Shown here: positions 5,696 through 26,500 of the stretch, piece by piece | Layout: each line of letters begins with the position of its first letter | Position numbering within the stretch: position 1 is the stretch's first letter | Assembly: GCA_949294455.1 (NCBI GenBank) | Contig: CASFHD010000012.1 | Span: 1-32,952, forward strand | DNA length: 32,952 bases | Direction: 5' to 3' | Origin: an uncultured Christensenella sp. | GTDB taxonomy: Bacteria; Bacillota; Clostridia; Christensenellales; UBA1242 | Notes under the pieces: generated by a model | What the model saw: only the letters and a program-made list of their open reading frames with translations | The model's database searches: none | Told to the model about the DNA's origin: nothing | Position numbers and translations under genes: made by a program

Positions 5696-6478
5696 ATGGT
5701 AAAAATAATTAACAAAATTATTTTATTAACATTTGTAATGCTTTGTGGCGTTACTTTTTTTGCTTGCAGAGAAACACCTACATATATTTTAAATAAATTA
5801 GATGAAATAAGAATTGATTTAACAATTAATAATGCTAGTCAAATATTGTATAATGATGTAATAGAAAGTGAAACAAAATTAAAGGAAAATTACATTAGTA
5901 AACTGTTGTTGCTAACTCCTGAAATGCAAAAAGAAATATTGAATTCAATCACTATAGAAGTGTCAAAATTAGATAATGGCAGATTTACTATAAAAAAACA
6001 ATTTGATAATTATAATTACTTTTGTTTTTATTATGGATTAGATTATGTTGAAAATTGCATAAATGTAAAAACTTTGGAAAACTCTTTTTTGACAAGTAGA
6101 TATTATTCAAATTTTGATTTTTTTAATACATTCTATGAGTATGACAACACTGCAAATATCTTAAAGCTAAATTCTCAAAACTTAAATTCAAATTGTGTAT
6201 TACTAATTAAAACAATATATTCAAGATTTAATAGTAGTGCTGATGTAAAATATCTAGATGAATCAGGCAAATTTAACCACATATTCATATCGGATAATTT
6301 TGAAAATAAATCAAACGATATATATGTAAATGTTGCGAATCGTTTTAGGTGGTTTATGCTTATTTTAATATCTATGTTGATAGTTTCTATAATCCTTCTT
6401 TTAGTAATTTTTATTTTAAAGTGTATTAAATACCATAATTACCGAAAGTCAAAACAATCCCAGCATAAATTGAATTGA
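5696..6478 (+). CDS. Putative lipoprotein with a C-terminal membrane segment, unknown function
   Basis: This 260-residue protein begins with a signal peptide ending in FFAC (cysteine at residue 24), an imperfect lipobox. If it is used, the mature protein is lipid-anchored. A second hydrophobic segment at about 216-240 is followed by a short basic tail, so the middle domain would be outside the cell and the tail inside. The middle part (30-210) resembles no family I can name. No SD precedes the ATG at 5696. The last 53 bp overlap the 3' end of the convergent amidase gene, so the two transcripts can pair. It may share a transcript with the exported protein upstream; no convincing terminator separates them. 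Confidence 0.75.
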   Translation: MVKIINKIILLTFVMLCGVTFFACRETPTYILNKLDEIRIDLTINNASQILYNDVIESETKLKENYISKLLLLTPEMQKEILNSITIEVSKLDNGRFTIKKQFDNYNYFCFYYGLDYVENCINVKTLENSFLTSRYYSNFDFFNTFYEYDNTANILKLNSQNLNSNCVLLIKTIYSRFNSSADVKYLDESGKFNHIFISDNFENKSNDIYVNVANRFRWFMLILISMLIVSIILLLVIFILKCIKYHNYRKSKQSQHKLN

Positions 6479-7130
6479 TGATTTTGTTTCTGTATTCATC
6501 TGTATTTAACATTATTTCTTCTTCTTTATTTGATAAAAATCCAAATTCAACTAAAATTGCAGGAGTTGATGAACAGTTTAATATATAGAAATCACCTGCC
6601 TTTATATTTCGCCCTTCCTTTATTTCTTTCAATTCCATATATTTATTTATATTATGTGCCACCTCTTTACTTGATTCATCATCAATTTTGTAATATATAC
6701 TTGCTCCTCTACAAGATGAATCTGGGAAACTGTTCATATGTATACTAATGGTTAGTGTTGGTTTAGTCTCATTTATAATTTTACATCTGTTTTTCATATC
6801 GTCTAGTTTTTTGTTATTAGCATTTTCGTCATATAATGCATTGTCATCAGTACGCGTCATAATAATATTGTAACCTGCGTTTTCTAATACCTCTTTTAGC
6901 GCTGTTGCATAAGTTAAATTAATTTCTTTTTCAATAGTGCCATTAAATCCTATACAACCTCCATCTCTACCGCCGTGACCTGCGTCGATTACAATTGTTT
7001 TTTTATAACTTTCACTGAATGCTAATGCGTCAATCGTTGGTGAAAGTTTTTTGCAAAATGTAATTAATAATGAAACCATAATTATAATTTGAAAGATTAA
7101 ACATATATTTATTATAATTTTCTTATACAT
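6426..7130 (-). CDS. cwlD: N-acetylmuramoyl-L-alanine amidase, CwlD-like (Amidase_3)
   Basis: This zinc amidase cleaves the bond between muramic acid and the peptide stem in peptidoglycan. Its 234 residues comprise one N-terminal membrane segment (about 5-26) and a single Amidase_3 domain from residue 44 to the end, the size and layout of Bacillus CwlD (about 237). The zinc ligands are H52 (DAGHGG), E67 (IEKEINL) and H131 (SIHMNS), and the catalytic glutamate is E195 (VEFGFLSN). CwlD acts with PdaA in making muramic-lactam in spore cortex, so the gene hints at sporulation ancestry. A vegetative amidase of the same fold is the main alternative. On the minus strand AAAGGAA (7135-7141) precedes the ATG. 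It is divergent from the radical SAM gene and convergent with, and overlapping, the lipoprotein gene. Confidence 0.85.
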   Translation of the reverse strand: MYKKIIINICLIFQIIIMVSLLITFCKKLSPTIDALAFSESYKKTIVIDAGHGGRDGGCIGFNGTIEKEINLTYATALKEVLENAGYNIIMTRTDDNALYDENANNKKLDDMKNRCKIINETKPTLTISIHMNSFPDSSCRGASIYYKIDDESSKEVAHNINKYMELKEIKEGRNIKAGDFYILNCSSTPAILVEFGFLSNKEEEIMLNTDEYRNKIINSIYAGIVLTFGNYGI

Positions 7131-7162: not shown

Positions 7163-7208
7163 TTATCCACCGAGTTATCCACAAAATGTGGAAAAGTATT
7201 GTGGATAA
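7163..7208. promoter_or_regulatory. Cluster of four DnaA-box-like sites
   Basis: The 9-mer TTATCCACA occurs perfectly at 7175-7183 and, inverted, at 7200-7208. One-mismatch copies lie at 7163-7171 (TTATCCACC) and, inverted, at 7187-7195 (TTTTCCACA when read on the minus strand). The two perfect boxes form 12-bp inverted arms (7173-7184 and 7199-7210). They sit between divergent genes, and the last box ends 4 bp before a -35 element. This suggests DnaA binding and possible control of both genes. A repressor operator is the alternative reading. Confidence 0.65.
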
Positions 7209-7212
7209 CTTA

Positions 7213-7241
7213 TTGACATTCTATCTTGTGCAAAATATAAT
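7213..7241 (+). promoter_or_regulatory. Consensus promoter giving a nearly leaderless radical SAM mRNA
   Basis: TTGACA (7213-7218), 17 bases and TATAAT (7236-7241) form a perfect consensus promoter. Transcription should begin near 7247-7249, two to four bases before the ATG at 7251, leaving no room for a ribosome binding site. Confidence 0.8.
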
Positions 7242-7250
7242 TATATATGT

Positions 7251-8138
7251 ATGAACAAGTTGTGTAATCTCTGTCCTAGAAAATGCAATGCAAATAGAAC
7301 TAATATAAAAGGATTTTGCGGTTGTGGAAGATTAATACATATATCAAAAGTTATGTTGCACCATTGGGAAGAACCTATAATAAGCGGTCAAGAATCTAGT
7401 AAGGGTAGTGGTGCAATATTTTTTTCTGGTTGTAACTTAAAATGCGTTTATTGTCAAAATGAATTAATTAGCCGAAGTGAAAATGGCACTGAATATAAAA
7501 CAAAACAATTTTTAAATTTGATAAAAGAACTTGAAAAAATGGGAGCGTTGAACATTAATTTGGTAACCCCAACGCATTATGTTGAAGAAATTATCAAAGC
7601 ATTAAAAATTTACAAACCTAAAATTCCTGTTGTGTACAATACTAGTGGCTATGAAGACCCGAAAGTTATTAAAAAATTAAATAATTTGATAGATATATAT
7701 TTAGTTGACTATAAATATTGTGATAATGATATATCTTTTAAATATAGTAGAGCAATAGACTATAATATTAATTGTGTAAATTCCATTAATGAAATGTTAA
7801 AACAATGTCCAAAAAATATTTATAAAATAGAAGATGGTGTTGAGTTGTTGACCAAGGGTGTAATCATAAGGCATTTAGTTTTACCTAACAATGTTGATAA
7901 TAGTAAAAAGGTGTTAGATTCTATAAAAAAAGAATTTGGCACAGATGTTTTGTTGTCAATTATGTGTCAATATGTACCTTGTGGAGATTTAAAAAATTTT
8001 CAAGAAATAAATAGAAAATTAAAACCTATTGAATATAAAGCGGTTATAACTTATGCACAAAGGTTGGGTTTTAAAGATTTTTTTATTCAAGAATTTGATA
8101 GTGCAAGTAAAAGTTATATACCTGATTTTAAACTTTGA
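7251..8138 (+). CDS. Radical SAM protein, PflA/PflX-like (COG1313-type)
   Basis: The 295-residue protein carries the radical SAM cluster motif CNLKCVYC (C61, C65, C68), which binds a 4Fe-4S cluster and S-adenosylmethionine. The N-terminus has a second cysteine-rich stretch, LCPRKCNANR with C5, C8 and C12 and then GFCGCG with C23 and C25, typical of the COG1313 (PflX-like) group related to pyruvate formate-lyase activating enzyme. Substrates of this group are not established. A QYVP motif near residue 241 is another family hallmark. The start at 7251 is fixed by the conserved CPRxC block; the next in-frame ATG would remove it. No SD exists and the promoter predicts a near-leaderless transcript. 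No partner glycyl-radical enzyme lies nearby. Confidence 0.88.
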   Translation: MNKLCNLCPRKCNANRTNIKGFCGCGRLIHISKVMLHHWEEPIISGQESSKGSGAIFFSGCNLKCVYCQNELISRSENGTEYKTKQFLNLIKELEKMGALNINLVTPTHYVEEIIKALKIYKPKIPVVYNTSGYEDPKVIKKLNNLIDIYLVDYKYCDNDISFKYSRAIDYNINCVNSINEMLKQCPKNIYKIEDGVELLTKGVIIRHLVLPNNVDNSKKVLDSIKKEFGTDVLLSIMCQYVPCGDLKNFQEINRKLKPIEYKAVITYAQRLGFKDFFIQEFDSASKSYIPDFKL

Positions 8139-8551: not shown

Positions 8552-11500
8552 ATGAGTAGTTTAAAAACCAAAAAAATAATAAAAATTATATTTGCTTTGA
8601 TATTGACATTGGTTGCAGGATTTTCAACAAATTCGTTGTTGAATAAATTCTTTAATCCTGAAAACACCTATGCCGCAGAAACAAGATATTATCTTACGAA
8701 CAACGGCGTGTCAGTTTATTACACAACGACAAAACCAACAACTGGTGCAAAATATACGTTTAGTGTAAATGGTATCTTATATTTACATACCGGACAGAGT
8801 TCCTACGCTGCTAGCATGGGTGCAAATGGAGATTATGCTGTTGCATCTATAAGTTATAAAGGGTCGCCAAAAGTAACTTTACGAACAAGTTCAGGCTCTA
8901 TATATTCAACTCTTACTGGTAATTGGACTGCGACAACAGATTCTTCAGGTGTTAGTTATTCGGGAACTACTAGCGTAACACTTCCTGCAAATGCTGGTGA
9001 AAGTGGCGTGTTTATGTATTGGCAAGATGTGTCCACGGGTGCTACGTATAGTGGAGGCAGTTCTTATAGTCTGGCGTATAACACAAATGCAACATTAAAG
9101 GCGGTTTATAATAAAAATCCTGAATACACATTTACGCTTTCCGCAGAAGGTGGTTCAATACCTGCAACGTCAGGTTGGACGGGAAGCGGGGCTAGTGCTT
9201 ACAGAAGAATAACGTTTGGTTCAAGCATTGGTGTATTGCCAAAACCTACTCGAAGTGGCTATACATTTAATGGTTGGTGGACAAGTAATGGTCAAATAGT
9301 CAATGATAATCAACCATACAATACTTATGGAGATTTAACAATTTATGCTGGTTGGGATCAAAATTCAACTGGTAGTATAACTTATTATACTGTAACTTTA
9401 GATGCTTATGCGAATGGTACCATACCTTCAACTGCGGGATGGACTATAACATCATCTAGGTATGCTACAAAACAAGTTGCCGCAGGTGCGGCGGTAGGAA
9501 CATTGCCAACACCAAGGACGAATGATGGGCGTTCATTCTATGGCTGGGTAAGTAATGGTACTACTTATAATGCAACAACTAAGATTTACAATAATGTTAC
9601 CTTGTATGCAAACTGGCAATATAGTGGTGGTGGCGGTGGAACGTCAAACAATGTAGTGTTGACATTAATTGCTGGAAGTGTTAATGGTGGGGTAAGAGGT
9701 AAAATACCAGCGACATCAGGTTGGACTTTGACTAATAACAATTCATCTGCATATAAAGTTTTGGGAACTTCTGGTGGATCATATTCAATTGGTACATTAC
9801 CTATTCCAACTCTTTCAGGGTATTCGCCTTCAGGGTGGCTGTTGCCAAATGGAAGTTCAACACATAGTGCTTATCAAATTTCAACAAGCACTACACTTTA
9901 TGTAGAGTGGACTAATCTTAGTAACTCTTGGTCTAACAACACATCAAAACCAAGCGGAAGTGGCACTTCGTCATCTCCATTTTTAATAAAAACACCCCAA
10001 AACCTAGCTTGGATTGCAACTAGTGTAAATTCGGGTAGTAATTTAAGAGCAGTTATTTCGCTTTGTAATGATATTGATTTATCTGGAAGAATATGGGTTC
10101 CTATTGGTAGCAATGAATATAAATTTGAAGGAACTTTTTATGGTAACAATCATACAATATCAAATTTGACAACTTCTTCTTCTACTGCTTATGGTGGATT
10201 ATTTGGAGTGATTACAGCATCAAAAAGCGGTTCAACTATTTATAAGGCTTATATTTCAAGTGTAAGAATAGACGGTGGCTCAGTAGCATCTACAAATGCT
10301 GCAGGTGGTATTGCCGGTTGGTCAACAACAACGGCTTATGAGACAGATTCAAGACCTTACATTGTCGATTGTTTTGTTAGATTGTCTAGCATAAAAACAT
10401 CGGGTGATAATGCGGGTGGTATTGTTGGTACATCGAATGGTGTTTATATAAATAGTTGTTATGTTGAAATCTCTGGCTCTGCTGGTATTTCAGCTGCTTA
10501 TGCTTCTGGAGGTATAGGTGGCTATTTTATGGGATATGGTACAATTACTAATTCTATAGCAAAAATAAGTGCTATTTCAGGTAGTGCAAAAGGCGCAATA
10601 TTAGCACAAACGAACTATATTATGGCAGCTACCGTATCTAATAATGCTAGTTTTACAAGTGCGACAACAAGTGTTATAGGTGCAAATTATAGTGGAGTTA
10701 GTTATTCAAATTGTTATGTAGGAACTAGTGGGTCATCTTCTAGAAATACATTAACAAATGTTTATTCGACTACATCAGCTATTATACCTACCACTAATTC
10801 TAATTATAAATTCATTTATAAACCAGATTTAAATAGTGGATATCCTATGGTTAAATCTTTGGTGTGGTGTTATGATTTACCTGTTACAATGCAGTTAAAT
10901 GCAAATGGTGGATTAGTATCTAATGTTAGTACATTAAGTTATACTATTACAGTAGGTCAAACAACAAATTTCCCTATAGCTGGTAGAGAGGGGTATACAT
11001 TTTTAGGTTGGTATACTTCTGGAGATATACAAATCACAAATTCTAATGGCGATTTGGTTCAAACAAGTTATACAAACAACTATTCTAAATATAGAGATGA
11101 TTATACTACTATAAAAAATCTATCATCTTCATCAAATTACCATAAAATGTATTATTACATTATGGGAGCATTAACGTTACAGGCTAAATGGCAAGCAAAT
11201 ACTTATACTGTAAATTTTAATGGAAATATGGATACCTATGGTTCAATGACATCGCAATCATTTACTTATGGAACGGCTCAAAATTTAAAAGGTAATGCTT
11301 TTAGAAGAACAGGATATGATTTCCAAGGTTGGTCTACTACTTTGAACGGAGATGTTGTATATTCAAATCAACAAAGTGTTATTAATCTTGTTTCTAACAA
11401 TAAGGGGTCTATAACACTTTATGCTAAGTGGCAACCAAAAAAAATTGTAGTAACAATTGATCCTAATGGCGGGACTTATAATGGAAACACTTCTTATTCA

Positions 11501-14500
11501 TATTTTTCTGGGAATTATGGAGAAAAATCATCGGTTTTATTAATACCTCAAAGGGAAGGTTATACATTTGCTGGTTGGGCACCGATAAGATATGATGCTG
11601 ATAGAAACCCTTGGGTGCAAATATATTATTTTAATAATGCAAATGCAGGTTATTTGTTTACCGCAGAAACTGCTCCTATGACAAATGAAGATGTTTACAG
11701 ATACAGTATGTTATCTAATCTTGATTATATGGAGCATGATGGAAAATATGAATTTCAACTTTATTACCATGACTATTTAAACACTAGTGGACAACCTGTT
11801 TTCAATCATTGGTCACAAACTCAAAACCCATTACATATAGAAAATGGGCAAAATCAAACTGCTGAAAGTATGGGTTATCAAGCGATTGATATAAATTTGA
11901 CTAATATTTGGAATTATGGTTTAGCATCTAATGTTTCAAAAAATGCATATTTAGTTGCAAACGCCGGCGGTGGAAACACTTGGAGACATTCGGTTGGTGC
12001 TTATACTTACCAAACTTCTTCTGATGGCCGAAAAGGAATAGTCGCTGATGATCTAAACAGTTCTATTGGTGGCGGACAATCTTTATTTATAAAAGCAGAT
12101 ATAGATCTAAGTAACATAAGCGATGCTCTTTATGAGGCTGGTGTGTACGCATTTAATGGAGCATTGGATAGTAATGGTCAATTTATTTTCAGACATACAT
12201 TGAATAATCATATTGCTCTTAAAGCAGTTTGGGTTAAAAATGTATATACAGTTACTTTAGATGCCAATGGTGGAACAATAAATCATTTTAAAAACAACTC
12301 TGATATGTCATATACAAGTGATTATAATGAAACAACAGGACATATCAAATTAAATGGCTCAATTTCAAATATTGTTTTGGGATATGAGTATCGTCAATTT
12401 AATTTAAATGAAATTGTAACTCTTACTATTAAACAATTATCAGGAAGTGTAAATAATAATTTTACTTTTTATGCTTATACTCAAGATAGTTCAGGTAATA
12501 ACATTGGCGGAACAAGTTCAGGTATAACATTTACATCATCTGACACGAAAAAAGAACAAACAGTGAGTTATACAATAAATCAAAGTATGGCTGACAATGG
12601 TTTTAAATTTTCCTTTGTAGGTAAATCTGGAGGTTCAAGTACTAGTTTGAATAATCTAGAATTACAAATTATAGTTAAAGTTTCACCTGATACTATAAAA
12701 GTTGATTACGGAGGAAGTTATGGTTTGGCTAACATATACAAAGGTAGTTCTGCTGCTGATATAAATGGCTGGTATAATTTTGCTAATATTTCTAACAATT
12801 TATATCCTGGAACTGAAATGTTTACTACTTATGATCCAAGTATTGAAGCAGGGAGATGTTTTGCGCTAGTTATCGAAATTAAAAATTTTGATGTAGAAGG
12901 AACTATTCAAGCATCGTTCTACTCAGGAGATATTAATAGTAATTATGGTGCAAGTCAGTTTGAATTAATCAGGTCTAATTTACCTTCATATCTAACAGGA
13001 GATGGGACTTATATTTCATATTTAAGGTCAGTTGATTTGTCTTCATATCAATATTCTAAATTTTTCTTGAGATCTCATTTTTATTTGAATTCAGGTGGTA
13101 CAATCAATTCCATCTCTGTAAGATTTTCAATGTACGAAATTGATCCTATTGACTTAAGTACTTGGAATTATACAAAATACAATCAAGTTATTTCGGTACC
13201 TTTTGCTACAGGGAAAGAATTTTTAGGCTGGTATACAGATTATTCAGGAGGAACATTAATAGATGCAGACTCTGTTTATACCGCAACAGAAGATATTACT
13301 TTATATGCTCATTGGCAAAACAACATTTATACTTTGACTTATGATGCACTTGAAGGTACTATCACTGAAGCTAATGGTTGGCAAGTGTCTTCCGATAATA
13401 AAACTGCTACTAAACAAATTGAATATAGCACCTATTATTTAGATTCTATTAACGGAATAGTATTTCCAACGGTTAGTTCGCCAAATGGAAAACATTATTC
13501 TTATACTATAGATAGCAGTGGTGATGAAATTATTGATGGCGTTACAGGTTTCTTCTTAGAATCAAATGAAACTATCACAGCTCATTATGATTATAATACT
13601 TATACGATTGAATATAATTCAAATAAGCCTAGCAATGCTAGTGGTAGCATTACTGGAACAATGTCTGCTTCAACTCATACTTATGGCACATCTAAAGCGT
13701 TAAATGCAAATCAATTTGCATTGACTGGTTGGACATTCGCGGGTTGGAATACAAAAGCAGATGGAAGTGGCACTTCTTATGGCAATCAAGCAAGTGTTAA
13801 AAACTTAACAAGTACAAATAACGGAAGTGTTACTTTATACGCACAATGGACACAAAATAAGTATAATATTACTTACAATCCTAACGGCGGTACAATGAAT
13901 GGAAGTTCATCTAATATCACAATATCTAATGCCGGTACTTATGATAGTAGTAGTTATCAGATACCTAATTATGTGCCGACTAGAACAGGATACACATTTG
14001 CAGGCTGGTATGATGCGGCGTCAGGTGATACTAAGTATATTAATGCTTATACATCGGTAACAAATCCTATAACAGGTGCTAGAACATTCAATAAGGCTAC
14101 AAGTACAACTTTCTATGCTCACTGGACTGTTAATAAGTATTCATTAGTCGTGAATTTGGGTTCTAGTGGTGCTAATGCGCTTGTTTCATCAATGCCTACA
14201 ATAACTATTGAAACTAGTGCTGGAACTCTATCAAGTAGTATAATAACAAGCAAGACTGGCAGTGTAACAATATCTAATATAAATTATGGTGCTAGTGTTA
14301 CAATTACAGCTAGTGTTCCATCTGGTTCTAGTTACTATTTATCAAATAGTTCAACACTTCCAAGTACAGTAGTAACACAAATTAGTGTTGATTCAACTAT
14401 AACTAAAACTGCAAGTAATTCTCAAACATTATCATTCTATTTAACGCAAGTTTATACAATTTCTTATAATTCAAATGGAATGAGTGGAACACTTCCTTCA

Positions 14501-17500
14501 AGTCAATCAGTTTATTACAATAAAAATATTGTTCTTGCTACTAATAATCTCACATCTTCAGGATATTCTCCTGATGGTTGGAGATTGAATAGCACAACAG
14601 GTACTAAATATGCTAGTGGTGCTACTTATAGTAATGTTAAAGCAAATGCTACATTCTTCGCGGATAAATCAGCTAATTCTTATAATATTACATTCAATCC
14701 AAATGGTGGAACAATGAATGGAAGCACTTCTAATATAGTCGTATCAAATGCTGTTAAGTATAATTCTGACAGTTACACAATACCTAACTATGTGCCTGCT
14801 AGGACCGGATATACCTTCTTAGGTTGGTACGATAATGCCACAAGCGGAACAAAATACATTAATGCTTATACTACTGTTAGCAATCCTGTAACAGGTGCTA
14901 GAACTTGGAATAAAGCGTCTAGTGCTACACTTTATGCACATTGGCAAATCAACACATATACCGTTTCAATTCAAGTAAATAATGCCGATTATGGTAGTGT
15001 AGATGTATCTTCTGTTGCAAACGTACCTTATGGTACAAAATTGTCAGTAAATGAAAATGAGTTGACTGTAAATGGAACTGTTGTTACCGCAACAGTAAAG
15101 AACATAACAGGTTATACTACAGAATTTACAAGTTGGACAAATGGAACGGCAACAGTATCTGGAAATTTGTCAGTAACGGCTAATTTTACTAGAACAATTA
15201 ATAGTTATACCTTAACTGCAAACGCCAATGGAGGAACTATTTCTGCAACTGATGGCTGGACTGGAATGGGTAGTACTGCAACAAAAGAATTAGATTATAA
15301 TGAAAACTATGGCATACTTCCAACAATTACAAGAACAGGGTATAGTTTCCTAGGTTGGTTTACTGCTCAAACAGGCGGAAATGAAGTTAGCACAACTACT
15401 AAAATGGGCGCTAATGATACTACAATTTATGCTCATTGGGAAATTAATAGTTATACCTTAACTGCAAATGCAAATAGTGGTACAATTTCAACTACTTCTG
15501 GTTGGACAGGAACAGGTAATACTGCAACAAAAGAATTAGTTTACAATACAGCTTATGGTACACTTCCAACAGTTGCAAGAACGGGCTATAGTTTCTTAGG
15601 CTGGTTTACTGCACAAACTGGTGGTAGTGAAGTTAGTACTACAACTAAAATGGGTGCTAATGATACTACAATTTATGCTCATTGGGAAATTAATAAATTT
15701 ACGGTTAACATAAATGTAAATAATTCAAACTATGGTTCAGTTAGCCCTACAACTGTTGAAAATGTCCCTTATGGTACAAAATTGACAGTTAATGGAAATG
15801 TCCTAACAGTTAATGGAACTAATGTAACAGCTACAATCACAAATTTGGCTGGTTACACAACTTCATTTACAGGCTGGACAAATGGCACTGATACAGTTAC
15901 AAAAGATACTACTGTTGTAGCAAACTTTAGTAGAGTTGCAAATGTTTACAATGTAACCTTACATACAAATGGCGGTACAATTAATTCAAATAATGTAACA
16001 AGTTATACTTATGGAATTGGTGCGACTTTGCCAAATTCTTCAGATATAACCATTCAAGGGGAAACTTTTGTTGGTTGGTATGAAAATGAAGGCTTGACTG
16101 GCAATGTTGTAACAGTAATTAAAACAACTGATATTGGAGATAAAGAGTATTGGGCTAAATATAGCGACAATGAATATTCAGTAACTTTACACACAAATGG
16201 TGGAACAATTAATTCTAATAATGTAACAAGTTATATTTATGGTGAAGGCGCTACTTTGCCAACTGCTAGCGATATTGTTAAAAATGGTTATACATTCGCT
16301 GGCTGGTATGCTTCTTCAACCTTCACAGGACAAGTTATTACAGAAATTTCTGCAACAGAAGTTGGTAATAAAGAGTTCTGGGCTAAATGGAATGTAAACA
16401 CTTATAATCTTACTTATGTTACTAATGGTGGAAATGCGATTTCTTCTAAACTATTAACTTATAACACTTATTATACTGCAGAAGGTTTAATCACTCCTAC
16501 TAGAACAGGTTACTCGTTCGATGGTTGGTATTCTAGTTCGGCTTGTACAGGTGATGAGTTAACAACTAATGATTTATTTGATGTTAACAATGCAGACTTT
16601 GAAAATATTTCAGCGCCAAATACTAATGCTAGAATTTATGCAAAATGGAATATTAATTCATACACTTTAACTGCAAATGCTAATGGTGGAACAATTTCTG
16701 CTACTTCTGGTTGGTCTGGAATTGGTAACACTTCTACAAAAGAGTTGGATTACAACGAAGCGTATGGTACACTTCCTACAGTTTCTAGAACAGGTTATAC
16801 ATTCTTGGGTTGGTTCACTTCTCAAACTGATGGAACACAAGTAAGCGTTTCAACAAATATGGGTGCTGATGATACTACAATTTATGCTCATTGGGATATA
16901 AATAAATTTACAATAACCATAAATGTAAATAATTCTAATTATGGTTCAGTTAACCCTACTACTGTTGAAAATGTACCTTATGGAACTAATATTGTAGTAA
17001 ATGAAAATACTTTAAATATTAATAGTAATGTAGTTACTGCAACAATAAACGAATTGACTGGTTATACTACTAACTTTGTAGATTGGACTATTGATGAAAA
17101 TGTAGTTTATGATGACTTAACTATAACTGCAAATTTTGAAAGATTTGCGAATACTTATACAATCACTTATGATAAAAATGCAGATGATGCAACAGGCAGT
17201 ATGGAAATGTCAACACATACTTATGATGTTTCAAAAGAATTAAACTTGAACAACTATCAAAGAGTGGGTTGGAACTTCCTAGGTTGGTCAACAAATAGCA
17301 CTGCAACAACTGCTACATTTACAGATGGTGAAAGTGTTAAAAATCTATCCTCTGAAAATGGCGACAATGTAATCTTGTACGCTGTATGGGCACAAAATAA
17401 ATATACTTTGGTATTAAATGCTGGTACAAACGCTATAATTGTCGGTGGGGAAGTTGAAAACTTTGTAAAAACACAATCAACTTTGACATCTTCAATTAAA

Positions 17501-20500
17501 TTTGAATATTGGGATTCTATAAATCTTCCTAACTTGTTTAGTGATAGCACACTTGTTAGTATTTTAAGGAATGGTTATAAATTCTTGGGTTGGTCAGTAA
17601 CTGAAAATGACACAACTTCTGATATTCAAAATGGTGGAAACATTAATGGACAAATTTTAGAAGATTTGAACATTTCTGTTGAAAATAATTCGACAATTAA
17701 TTTGTATGCTGTATGGCAGGCTGTAACTTATTCTGTTGAATATGATATAAACGGCGGAGAAGGAACAGTAGCAAATCAAACTCATACTTATAATGTTGCA
17801 CAAGCATTAAGACCATCAACAAACCTTTCAAGCACAGGAAAAACATTTGTTGGCTGGTTGGGTTACAGTGCAAATTTAATAGATACTAATGGTTATACTA
17901 ATTTAAGTAATGTTTATATAGATGAAGATGGTTATTTCCATATAAATATAAACAACACATCTTCAAATAGCATTATTGCAAATATAAATAACACTAAATA
18001 TTTACAATTATTAGCAAGTGAAAATTATTACTTGAATGTATTCATAAAATCAATTAACACAAATGGCAATGTATTGTTCGTAAATGGAAATTCATCACAA
18101 TTTGGTGCTATATCTAAAAACTTTGATGAATTTAATGTTGGAAATAATATATTAGAACTAACAACTATTTCAAATGTTTCAACTGCTGATACACTTTTAA
18201 TGACTAGTGTTGAAGTAGAAGCAGGGGCTAGTGCTGAAATCGTATTCAGATTGGCTTTATATGAAGAAATTAATCACTTGTATCAAGCAAGCGAAATTGT
18301 TAGAAATTTAAGCAATTTACAAGATGATAGTCTAACAATGACAGCATATTGGGAAGCAAATACTTTTGATATTACTTTCAAGTCAAATGGCGGAACAATA
18401 AATGGTAGTGCAGACGATGTTGAAATTATAGATAGTGCAACTTATGGCGAAAATGAATATATCGTGCCTGATTATGTGCCTACAAAAGAAGGTTACAGAT
18501 TCTTGGGTTGGTTTGATGCTGAAATAGGTGGAAATCAATATATTGAAGGTTATTCTTCAGTAGTTAACCCTGTAACAGGTATCAAGAGTTTTGATAAATT
18601 AGAAAATACAATTTTCTATGCACATTATGAAGTTGTAACTTATGAATTAAATGTTAAATTAAATGTTAATGTTTATACAATGACTAATGTAACTATAAGT
18701 GTTTCGGGTATCCACCCAGATACAGGTGTCCAAACTAATTTCTTACCAGTTGATGATAATAGCGTTATGACTTCTGGTGGAACATTGGTTTACAACATTC
18801 CATTCGGAACTAATGTTACTATCACTGCAACAATTAACGGTAACAGATATAATCTTGTTGTAGGAAATATTGATAATGCAACTATTAACAAAAACACTAC
18901 AGCAACTTCTACTTTGACAAAAGATACTTCTGTTCAAACGGTAGAATTCTGTTTAAGTGAAGTTTATACTGTAACATATAATCTAAATGGTGGAACAGGA
19001 CCTTTGCCTTCTTCACAATATTATTTATATGGTCAAAAGATAACTGTTGCTAATCCTTCTGTTATAACTAAAAATGGTTATACAGGTGCTTATTGGTTAT
19101 TGAATACAAGTGATTACAATACTAATGTATATATTAAAGGACTAAGTTCTGGTGATGAATTTAATGTTTATACAGGCGATTCAACATTGTATTGCGGTTT
19201 CTATCCTGATAAAATTAGTGCTATTATTGACTTAAACGATGAAGATGGTTCAACTAGTGCTTCTTATGATGATAATGGCGATATGACAATTATTGGTGCA
19301 GTTGATTATATTGCTTATCTAAAAGAACCTACAAGGGCAGGTTATGAATTTGATTCGTGGACAACAAATAATGGCTTAGTTACTCTTACAAATTATGAAG
19401 ACGGTAATAATAAATGGGAAGCAAAATTCTATGATTATGTAGAAAATGTTTCAACAAAAGAAGACATTCAAAATATTGATAATTCGTATTATAGAGGTAT
19501 AAAATTAATCGATAATTTGAATAATGAATTGACCTTTGATACATCATATATCATTTATGCAACAACTTATGTTAATTCTAGTTCAACAATGGCATTTAGC
19601 GGTAGTTGGAACTATAATACTATTGCGAGCTTGTATGTAAATGATAATTTGATTAATACAGGTAACAACTCTGATATTAATATTGATATAGCATTTACAT
19701 TAAATAAAGGTTGGAATAAAATTGAAGTCGTCTTAACTGTAAAAGAATACTTTGGTAAATTTATATTCAGTTCAAATTTGTCAACAATGGGTGTTGTAAA
19801 TTGTTATGGCGAAAGCATTCAAAATGACAAAATGTATTCTTACACATTTACTGAAAATACTATTGATAATGTTAATGTTGTTTCTGCAAATTGGTCTAAA
19901 AATTCAATTCAGTTGATGTTAGATGCTAATGGTGGTGAAATCTTATCTAACACAATTGATATAACATTTGATGAAATACCTACTAATATGATTGAAGCAA
20001 ACAAGGTTGGTTATACCTTTATTGGTTGGACTATCACAAAAGATGGAACAGATTTTGTATTCGATAAAAATTGTAATGTTGTAACAAATGTCGAAGGCTA
20101 TACTGATAATGTTGGTAATTGGATAATGCCTGAAGATACAACTTTGTATGCTAGTTGGACTGCAATAGAATATATAGTTCATTTTGATAATGGCGGTACT
20201 ATTGGTTCAACTATAGCGACAGGTACAATGAATGATATGTTATTCATTTATAATGAAAGTCAAAATCTATATGCAAATAATTTTGTTCGTAATAATTACA
20301 CATTTGTTGGCTGGACTATGAACAATGTTAACGCAGTAACTTATAGAAATAACTATATTAATAACTTTGGTACAACTGATGAAATTGGTATAGATGATAT
20401 TTTGGCGCTTGAAGATGTTTACGCTGACGGCGAAAGTGTAAAGAACTTGACAAATGTAAATGATAGCATAGTTACATTGTTCGCAATATGGATTCCGAAT

Positions 20501-23500
20501 AGCTATGTTATCTCTTATGTTGCAAATGAACCTGAAGGAACAGCAACAGGAAACACTGAATCTAGTACTCATCTTTGGGATGTTGAAAAGAGTTTAAGTC
20601 CTAATGGTTTTGTGTTACCTGGATATATGTTGACCGGTTGGGCAAAATCAATTGATGGTTCAATTGCTTATACTAATGAACAAACAGTTGTTAATGTGTC
20701 TTCTACAAATATAACATTGTATGGTGTTTGGGCTTCTGATTATGTAACAATTACTTTGGATAATCAAGGTGGCATAGGTGGTTTAGAGTCTATAAATGCA
20801 GTTTATAAACAAACATTCCCTAATGTTCAAACTCCTACAAAAGAAAATTATGTATTTAGAGGTTATTACTCTGAATTAAACGGAAATGGCACAAGATATG
20901 TTGATGAAAATGGTACAGGTATTGCAGAGTCTGACTTTAATACACCTGCTACTATATACGCATATTGGGTACAAGCAAAAGTTGGCGATAACTACTTCTC
21001 ATCAATTCAAACTGCGGTAGATAGCAATACAACGGCAGATATAATTGTTGAAATATTGTGCGATATTGCAATGACTGAAACAGTAAATGTTACAGGTAGT
21101 AGAGTAGTAACATTAATCCCTGAAAATGAAACAATTACTTTAACAAGAGATGAAGCATTTACAGGCAGAATGTTTGTAAATAGCGCAAATGAATTAATAT
21201 TTGATAAAAATTCATTAGATAGTATAATTACATTTGATGGTGAAAATGTTTCAGTAAATACAAGTGCAATTTATTCAAATAATCAACTAACTATAAAGGC
21301 GGGTACATTCCAAAACTTCATAACATCTTCAAATGGTGCTGTCTTGTATATTAATTCAGGTTCACTTGTTATTGAAGGTGGAACATTTACATTAAATAAC
21401 TCATCAAAAAATGGTGGTGTAATTTATATTAATTCTAGTAGTTTAAATCCATCAACTTTAACAATTAAAAATGGAAATTTTGAACAAAATACTGCTTATA
21501 ATGGTGGTGTGGTATATGGGCACACTTCATCAATAATAATGATAGAAAGTGGAACATTTACATCAAATTCAGCAACTTATTATGGTGGTGTAATTTATGG
21601 AAATTCTTCTACAACAATCACAATAGAAGGTGGAACATTTACATCAAACTCAGCAACTTATTATGGTGGTGTAATTTATATTGATTTTAGTAATTCAAAT
21701 CCATCAACTTTAACAATTAAAAATGGGACCTTTGAACAAAATAGTGCTAGTTCTGGTGGTGTAATTTATATTAATTCTAGTAGTTTAAATCCATCAACTT
21801 TAACAATTAAAAATGGAACCTTTGAACATAATACTGCTAATTATGGTGGTGTAGTATATGGATATGATTCATCAACAATAACAGTAGAAGCTGGAACATT
21901 TACATCAAATTCAGCAACTCATAATGGTGGTGTAATTCATGGAGACAGATCATCAACAATTACAATAAAAGATGGAACATTTACATTAAATAACTCATCT
22001 TACAATGGTGGTGTAATAAGTGGATCAACAATTACAATAGAAGATGGGACCTTTGAACAAAATATTGCTAGGTCTGGTGGTGTAATAAGTGGATCAACAA
22101 TTACGATACTAGATGGAAGATTTACATCAAATAGTGCTAATGCTACATACTCTAATGGTGGAGGAGGTGTAATAAGTGGATCAACAATTACTATATTTAA
22201 TGGACAATTTGAACAAAATAGTGCAACTTATAATGGTGGTGTAATATTGGGAAGTGCTTCATCAACAATAACAGTAGAAGGTGGAACATTTACATCTAAT
22301 AGCGCATTTAATGGTGGTGTAATTTGTATTAATTTGGGTACTTCACATTCATCAACTGTGACTATTAAAAATGGATATTTTGAACAAAATAGTGCAGGTA
22401 ATTATGGTGGTGTAATTTATGGAGACGGAAATTGTACAATTGAAAATGGATATTTTGAAGAAAATAGTGCAACAAGATATGGTGGTGTAGTATATGGATA
22501 TGATTCATCAACAATAACAGTAGAAGCTGGAACATTTACATCAAATTCAGCAACTCATAATGGTGGTGTAATTTATGGAGACAGATCATCAACAATTACA
22601 ATAAAAGGTGGAACATTTACATCAAATACTGCAAATTATGGTGGTGTAATTTATGGCAGAACTTCATCAACAATAACAGTAGAAGCTGGAACATTTACAT
22701 CAAACTCAGCAACTTATAATGGTGGTGTAATTGATGGAGACGGAAATTGTACAATTGAAAATGGAATCTTTGAACATAATACTGCAGCTGATGGTGGTGT
22801 AATTTCTAATTCTGGTTCAACTACAATAGAAGGTGGAACATTTGATGCTAATAATGATGTAAATATTCCTTCTTATATATATGCAGACGAATTAAAAATT
22901 ACAGGTGGAATATTTAATAACTTTACAGGTGTTAAGGCTATTAGGTTAGGTTCAACATCTGGCTATGCATATATCGAAATTGATAATCCATTTGAAATCT
23001 TTGAAGTTGCTGTAAAAAGTAGCAATACAAGTAAAATTTACTTTGACAGACCATTAAATAATAACATTCTTATAAATTTCACAACCACTGTTACAGTAAA
23101 TAATCAAGATATAATATACTATTACAGTGATTCATTAAAAGACATTGAAAGCACAACCGTAAATGGTTACACCTACATTTATGGTTGGTTGCAAGGTGTT
23201 GAAAATAATGAAAACACCAAAGTTGAAACATCTAATAGCAATGTAAAGATAGGATTCAGAAAAGACACTTCTGAAGGCTATGAAAAATCTTCATTATATT
23301 TAACAAGAGCATATTTAGCGACTATTGATATCAGTAGTTTTGTTGAAGAATTATACCCAACTGATGACAATAATTTAACTATACTAGAAAGGAATGGCTG
23401 GACAAAAGTAAACAACACACGCTTTACATTAAATGTATTGGGTGGTCAAGAATTTAATGTTTATATTCCTACTAGATTAGGCTACACATTTGCTGGTTGG

Positions 23501-26500
23501 AATGTTACGAGTAATGCTGAATTAATTTCATCTAATTCGGAGTACTATGTTTACAAAGTATCTAACCAAAATGTTACATTTAAACCTACTTGGAACGAAA
23601 CTATATATACAATCACTTATTTAGACAGAGGCGAAACTGACAATATTGAATTCTCTGGAACATTGCCAGACAATGCACCATACGAATACACAATAACATC
23701 TGGTGCAACACTTCAAAATGCAACAAAAATATACTACATCTTTAACGGCTGGTATGACAGTTTCTCTGGTGGAAACAAAGTAACAAATATTCCAGCAGGA
23801 CAGACTGGTGATATTAAGTTGTATGCTGAATGGATTAGAGCAGTAGTAAGAGTAAATGTTTCTAATACTAGTGCTATTAATGGAACTACTTTTGATGATG
23901 GTTATGTTTACTATGCTGACATACAAATGGCTATTGATGATATAATAACAACTGAAAATGTTGTATTAGAATTGTTATGTGATTTTGAGATTAGCAAGGC
24001 TATTTCAATGTCAGATAAAGATATAACAATTAAACCTATTGACTATTCATCAATAACTGATGCGAATGTTACGACAGATAACGATATAACCATAACACGC
24101 GCAAGTGCATATTTTGGATATATTATAGATATCAAATCAAATTCAAAACTTACTATAGATGTAAATGTTGATAAGATATTGTCATTTATTGGAAGTGAAA
24201 ATCAGAATAATTATGGAATTATTTTAAATGCTGGGGAATTAATCATCAATAATGGTATTTTCTCAAATTCATCAAATAGTTCAAATTATTCAAATATAAT
24301 AAACAATTTAACAAATTCTAATTTAACAATTAATGGCGGAGATTTCAGTTCAACAAATGCTCAATTACCATTAATTAGAAATTTAGGAAATGTAACTATA
24401 AATGGTGGTAATTATACAAACGATCTAGTGTTGATTGACACAAATGACAACAGTGAATTACAAACTACATTGAACATATCAAACGGAACATTTAATGGAA
24501 CAATTTCAACAAATAATTCAATCGGTTCAACAATCAATATTAACGGCGGATTATTTAATGGTGCTGTTGAAATTGCAGGAAATACTTTAGCAACAATTAA
24601 TAACGGAACATTTAACGACAACTTAAATGTTGAATATACAAATGGCAGTGTCAAGATTGTAAATGGTAACTTTAGTAAAGTTGTTGTGTCGGGTGAAATT
24701 TCAATAGAAGTTTTAGGCGGTACATTCAATTCTTTAACAAACAATGCAATCTTTGAATTAAGCAATAATGCAAGCATTAAATTATTAAATGATATTGATA
24801 TTGGTTCTGTGAAGTTTAACAACAATTCATTGAATTCTAAAATTTATGCAAAATATAGACCATCTAATGTTATTAAGTTGGTTTATGATAATTGGCAATT
24901 TGATGCTACTAGAAATCTTGTTGAATATTATACTGATGAATATTCAACTGAAGCTACTCATTCTGAAGTTGTAGATGGTGTTACTTATACTTGGAATTAT
25001 GGTTGGTTGTCATACAATCCTGCAACTGACACTGAAGATTATGCAAGTATGTTCCCACTATATTCAGATATAAACAATCAAGTGAGTGGAAATGTTTATT
25101 CATACTTTGTAACTGAATTCTTAATTGAACAAGGTTATTACAAGTCATTCATTAGAGCATACAAAGATGTTACTCTTACAGTAAATCCTAATTACACAGA
25201 AGACTTTGATATGATTAAACAGCACGAAGGCTTGACCGATGAAGAATTATTCACGCTTTACGGCATTTCTTACATCTCAAATAGTTCTGGTAATGAAGAA
25301 GAAATCTTTACGCTCGACAGTTTCACAATAACTAAAACTTATGGTCAGACTTTACAATTTGGTCAAATTTTAAGAAGAGGTTATTCGTTCAATGGTTGGA
25401 CAAGTGATACTTTAAACTTAGACTTTGCAGAAAATGGATTTGTTTATACATTCGGTGCGTCCGACAGTGTAACAATTACTGCTGATTGGTTGGCAGACAC
25501 TTATACAATTAATTTTGTAGGTGGTTCTCAAGATGGCTTTGTTGCTACAGGCTCTATGAATAGCATTGAAGTTCAATTTGATGAAATTGTGCAATTACCT
25601 GCAAATGAATTTGTATTAGATGGTTATAACTTCGTTGGCTGGTTGATTTCTGGCTACAATGAAAATACTGCTAGATATTCAGCAACAAATGAATTTAATC
25701 CTGGTACTTATGTAACTGAAGTAAATAACATTTTGTACGACAAATACTTTGTTTTAAGTTTACAAACTAACGGAATTGTTACTCTTACTGCTCAATGGAC
25801 TAATGCAACATATACTGTTTCATTCGATGCAAATGGTGGTAATGTAGATGAATTATCTAAACAAGTAGTTTATAATCAACCTTATGGCGAACTTCCTATT
25901 CCTACTAGAACAGGTTACGAATTTATCGGCTGGTTTACTGATGCTGATAACGGAACAAAAGTTGAATCTACTACTATTTACTTAATCAATGATGATTCTA
26001 CTCTTTACGCTCATTGGCAAGCTAGCAGTGTTAGATATGTGGTAAGACATTATTATCAAGATTTAACTCAAGATGATAATTTAACTGTAACATTAAGTTA
26101 CACAACTAGCACTGTTGAAGAATTAAGCGGACTTTCTGATAGCATTATAAACATAAACGATTTAGCAAAAGATAAATATGGATTTAATTTCATATGCGGT
26201 AACGAAACAGGAAATCCTTCAGACAGTGTAAATAATATTACAATAAGTCCAAATGGCACAACTGTGGTTTACTTGTATTATGAAAGACTACAAGGAACTA
26301 TTAATATCATTATTAATGATGCAAAAGACAGTCAAGGAATTGTAGTACCTGGTGTACCAAGTGCATCTTCAGTTTCAGGTAGCGGTACATATTACTTTGA
26401 ACAAATTGTGAAATTACAAGCAGTTATTACTTTAGGTTGTGAATTTACTAATTGGGAATCTATGTATGGTTCGTTTGATAATGACACTTTGAACCCTACG

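Follow-up and report, generated by a model that had tools for sequence, protein, structure and literature searches.

A conserved DnaA-box array outside the replication origin of an uncultured Christensenella

What is a tight group of DnaA-box-like sites doing between two divergent genes in an uncultured Christensenella, a small gut bacterium? The window, i.e. the whole stretch of 32,952 nucleotides analysed here, carries four such 9-mers within 46 bp between genes for a CwlD-like amidase and a radical SAM protein. A first-pass annotation had read them as a DnaA-box cluster outside oriC, and this reading held: the clustering is non-random, the site is not the origin, and the arrangement is common to related genera.

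A 46-bp array between divergent genes

Two of the four boxes are exact and two carry one mismatch, with gaps of 3, 3 and 4 bp between them (Table 1). All four were recovered where the first-pass annotation had placed them, as were the 12-bp inverted arms it had pointed out (AGTTATCCACAA/TTGTGGATAACT; complementarity 100%, 14 nt in between), which contain the exact boxes. The tandem boxes III and II lie 3 bp apart, within the 2-3 bp that define the double DnaA boxes of E. coli. The amidase is called CwlD-like because its best NCBIfam match, TIGR02883 CwlD, scored 187.9 bits, below the cut-off of 221.55. The boxes are situated within about 80 bp upstream of its start, and a consensus scan gave no match for an amidase promoter; on the other side, 4 bp separate the last box from the -35 element of the radical SAM promoter. 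Farther along the plus strand, positions 8552-28183 form one open reading frame of 6543 aa, which consists mostly of Listeria-Bacteroides repeats (Flg_new, PF09479) and probably encodes a giant surface protein.

Table 1. Positions of the array, its boxes and the flanking features in the window.
Feature	Position	Strand	Remarks
CwlD-like N-acetylmuramoyl-L-alanine amidase (Amidase_3)	6426-7130	-	neighbour common to relatives
Box III of the shared triplet	7163-7171	+	TTATCCACC, one mismatch; aligned with relatives
Box II, exact DnaA box	7175-7183	+	TTATCCACA; 3 bp (GAG) after box III
Box I of the triplet	7187-7195	-	TTTTCCACA, one mismatch; faces box II at a distance of 3 bp
Fourth box, exact DnaA box	7200-7208	-	4 bp from box I; outside the triplet common to genus g12
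Radical SAM promoter TTGACA-17-TATAAT	7213-7241	+	identified by match to the consensus (12/12 positions)
Radical SAM protein related to glycyl-radical-enzyme activating proteins	7251-8138	+	all NCBIfam matches below cut-off; neighbour in the window's genus only

The genome of the window is a 1.13-Mb assembly of 44 contigs. Counted over the whole genome, exact boxes numbered 27 versus 23 in the reversed control and sites with at most one mismatch 433 versus 516, i.e. no global enrichment of TTATCCACA was found. What stands out is the clustering. In 12 simulated genomes of equal length (order-4 Markov), 46 bp never held more than two boxes versus four at the array, and a Poisson estimate from the observed box density gave about 2e-4 expected clusters of this kind per genome. 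Pairs of exact boxes within 46 bp occur at only three places in the genome: at oriC, at the array and inside a helicase gene. Clustering at the array, which the first-pass annotation had proposed to check by a genome-wide count, exceeds chance, and the array shares this grouping of several boxes with the DnaA-box clusters (DBCs) of B. subtilis.

Location relative to the replication origin

The dnaA gene of this genome is found on another contig (C9), between recF and dnaN; its product matches TIGR00362 with 489 bits and carries the C-terminal signature GGRDHTTIMHA. A second Bac_DnaA Pfam match, on contig C31 (342-746), has an internal stop and is possibly the remnant of a DnaC/IstB-like AAA protein. 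The oriC on C9 has an AT-rich 1-kb gap in which weak tandem boxes directly follow dnaA and an exact inverted pair precedes dnaN. In the window, the GC skew is positive on either side of the array and dips only across the minus-strand amidase gene. With 7 kb, the left arm of the window is short for a skew test, and the skew in relatives therefore matters. The sign of the skew changes at dnaA in both relatives investigated, G073 and G025. G073 carries a dense non-origin cluster, its array, 28 kb from dnaA (the genome of the window is itself fragmented across contigs). In G025, of whose contig about 72 kb reads N, a vanW-linked cluster lies 157 kb off and not at the skew switch. No other clusters of at least three boxes besides those at dnaA-dnaN were found in these two stretches, and the reversed control gave 0.

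Box density at the array is comparable to that at the genome's own oriC, which could speak for an origin or a part of one; against this, neither dnaA nor dnaN adjoins the array, the skew is positive on both sides, and the switch occurs at dnaA in two relatives. We discarded the array as an origin, a reading that is extremely improbable, because the dnaA-dnaN locus lies on another contig and the skew of the window keeps one sign. The first-pass annotation had already noted that no dnaA or dnaN gene is in view near the array, and like the B. subtilis DBCs the array is located outside oriC.

Conservation of the array and its neighbours

The only other genome of the window's genus is 99% identical and therefore provides no independent evidence of conservation. 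The exact 20-mer TTATCCACnGAGTTATCCAC turned up in 15 of the 34 listed genomes of genus g12 and, over the whole family, in 24 of 309 genomes, and the reversed control gave 0. Eight g12 species have the full spacing in common: AAAGTTATCCACA-nnn-TGTGGATAA-CTC-TGTGGATAA-CT-TGTGGAwAn-n-GTGTGGAAAA ... TGTGGATAA. Mean pairwise identity among these eight was 0.87-1.0 in all six boxes, four of which lay outside the search pattern, versus 0.40 and 0.37 in the flanks. The other g12 matches keep boxes II and III (by selection) and, in nearly all cases, box I; further downstream they are variable. Read on its minus strand, the window has CTTTTCCACA-TTT-TGTGGATAA-CTC-GGTGGATAA, i.e. the I-II-III core of g12 plus one extra upstream box. 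The arrangement of the array is conserved between two genera.

Among 30 radical SAM loci, the array was present at two, both from the window's genus. None of the 28 loci outside the genus had such an array or a nearby amidase gene, and one of them showed two scattered one-mismatch sites. Because its orthologs outside the genus do without the array, the radical SAM gene was ruled out as a regulated partner; it is an accidental neighbour. Of 59 sampled family genomes, 55 have an amidase ortholog. Arrays lie upstream of the amidase gene in G000/G001, G073 and G012 (genus g12) and box pairs in G061 and G024, while about 49 of the 55 have no array upstream; boxes and amidase start are about 40 to 330 bp apart in this sample. 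In the amidase tree, g1 (G000/G001) and g12 form one clade (support 99/93) with the array in every sampled member; since most g12 rows were picked for carrying the 20-mer, this result speaks to shared ancestry of the array and not to its frequency. The sister of this clade, the G021 amidase, has no array, and the amidases of G024, G061 and L311 are separate cases in the tree, the last one from another family and with a similar triplet about 250 bp upstream.

While the array stays, the gene opposite the amidase changes: radical SAM, DHH/NrnA-like, RelA/SpoT or Na/Ca antiporter. In g12, the array sits between a gene for an NrnA-like DHH protein and the CwlD-like amidase gene. The DHH gene adjoins parAB in several species, giving the order parB, DHH, array, amidase in several genomes. 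It is the more constant neighbour in g12, adjoining the array in all 13 cases with sequence on that side versus about 9-10 of 15 for the amidase gene, and four g12 genomes have the array and the DHH gene with no amidase nearby. The array follows the amidase in g1 and g12, and isolated cases were seen in g24, in g61 and in one further family; a strict tie was rejected as a rule, since most family amidases lack the array and some g12 arrays lack the amidase. Of the link to both flanking genes drawn by the first-pass annotation, the amidase half stands for g1 and g12, and the radical SAM half falls with the 28 array-free loci. Loss of the 9-mers in close relatives, which the same annotation had named as evidence against its reading, was not seen on the amidase side, where relatives keep the boxes.

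Several further box groups were noted. The interval between vanW-like and short-chain dehydrogenase genes contains five to eight boxes in about a dozen family genomes (L140 (G025), L141, L147, L150, L190 and others). In four genera, box groups lie just 3' of a calcium/sodium antiporter gene (L073, L074, L098, L166), and box groups adjoin parB in three lineages (L313, L071, L316), of which one belongs to a different family within the order. The window's own genome has three boxes at the 3' end of a vanW-like gene (contig C1, L005:6652-6756), two of them with the 3-bp tandem of the window.

Possible roles of the array

On balance, we favour an extra-origin DnaA-box cluster that would mainly hold DnaA and would probably have a local effect on transcription; the array is probably a real DnaA control site and not a chance match. 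Several DnaA molecules would bind the closely phased boxes cooperatively, at one set location outside oriC. The main role would most likely be that of a sink, in which DnaA held on the chromosome lowers the level of free DnaA and shifts the timing of initiation, and bound DnaA would probably also alter local transcription, chiefly that of the amidase gene. The binding of DnaA, its retention in a sink and any regulation of genes are predictions. An effect on transcription appears probable because the array covers the upstream region of the amidase gene and touches the -35 element of the divergent gene; a DnaA-holding role of the element as such is favoured because it outlives changes of neighbours and is strictly phased. 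Non-origin box clusters are common in the family, in support of the view that these reduced genomes employ DnaA arrays outside the origin more generally.

In E. coli, DnaA favours boxes separated by 2-3 bp (PMC11317965), and the 3-bp gaps of the array fit this preference. The sink role is suggested by analogy with B. subtilis, which has six DnaA-box clusters outside oriC (Okumura et al. 2012, as cited in PMC5295017 and PMC13220808) and initiates early when all six are deleted (PMC13220808, PMC5295017); at some sites its DnaA also works as a transcription factor (PMC13220808, PMC5295017, PMC4447404). Like the array, the B. subtilis DBCs are groups of closely placed consensus boxes that lie in intergenic DNA outside oriC, again in a Gram-positive lineage, and some are near genes that DnaA may regulate. 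They differ in their neighbours and in the box number and spacing, which here are strictly kept across the species of one relative genus. The double DnaA boxes of E. coli (purH, mutH, polA; PMC11317965), a class from ChIP-seq, likewise have tandem boxes 3 bp apart, whereas the array adds a fourth and an inverted box. Within the same genome, the dnaN-proximal inverted pair of oriC (C9:5121-5151, L003), AGTTATCCACA ... TGTGGATAACT, resembles the array in lying just upstream of a consensus -35 element, but with 22 bp from box to box versus 25, 16 bp before the dnaN -35 versus 4, and no tandem box.

A possible but doubtful alternative is gene-specific control, in which DnaA as a transcription factor couples the CwlD-like amidase gene (in g12 also the NrnA-like DHH gene) to replication and any sink effect is incidental. 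The closeness of the boxes to the amidase start in the window, the persistence of the array beside the amidase from g1 to g12 despite a changed opposite neighbour, and the amidase-linked box pairs of G061 and G024 and triplet of L311 argue for it. The variable distance to the start, the four g12 genomes with array and DHH gene where the amidase is not nearby, the failure of the consensus scan to give an amidase promoter, and the position of other family clusters 3' of vanW or of the Na/Ca antiporter gene all argue against it. The perfect 12-bp arms could also be read as the site of a different regulator that recognises dyads, or as an RNA hairpin in a 5' leader, a prospect to which we give very little credence. 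The array folds better than shuffles on both strands (z about -3), but the part common to relatives is the tandem pair plus one inverted box and not the 12-bp dyad, the unit kept is the DnaA box that also builds the genome's own oriC, and the repeat lies upstream of the radical SAM -35 element and so would not be transcribed from that promoter. Since both tandem and inverted boxes are kept in relatives, another regulator on the inverted arms, as the first-pass annotation had allowed for, is unlikely.

The triplet also invites comparison with the DnaA-reactivating sites of E. coli. Both DARS1 and DARS2, read from the DNA of E. coli K-12 (NC_000913) with box assignments of our own guided by the published description (PMC5742627), have box I reversed, 5 bp, box II, 3 bp and box III; a head-to-head arrangement of boxes I and II characterises DARS (PMC5742627, PMC10380432). 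The array has the same three-box core, box I (7187) facing II (7175) and III (7163), and the same 3-bp gap between II and III, whereas I and II are 3 bp apart and not 5. A DARS-like element, in which convergent boxes I and II with tandem box III would promote ADP release and reactivate DnaA, is possible but quite unlikely: besides the differing gap, B. subtilis lacks DARS (PMC13220808), and the I-II-III triplet adjoins dnaA in four sister-family genomes (L308, L317, L318, L319) and is therefore not confined to sites away from the origin. We do not claim DARS membership; with its different spacing and its occurrence beside dnaA in sister families, the triplet is better regarded as a module found in origins as well. 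A broader idea, which we hold unlikely, is that a DnaA nucleoprotein element of fixed geometry (convergent I, tandem II-III and further phased boxes), located outside the origin and in several relatives beside parAB, modulates the oligomerisation of DnaA or its nucleotide state. If true, it would be a functional counterpart of DARS or datA in a Gram-positive lineage where none is known.

The extra-origin cluster that we favour touches the question of how DnaA activity is kept in check in Gram-positive bacteria that have no Hda, DARS or datA. A short, strictly spaced array is kept across species of a reduced-genome lineage of Clostridia. It offers a compact, testable element that may be a sink, a gene switch or a modulator of DnaA, and it also allows one to ask whether the expression of a cell-wall hydrolase is tied to replication.
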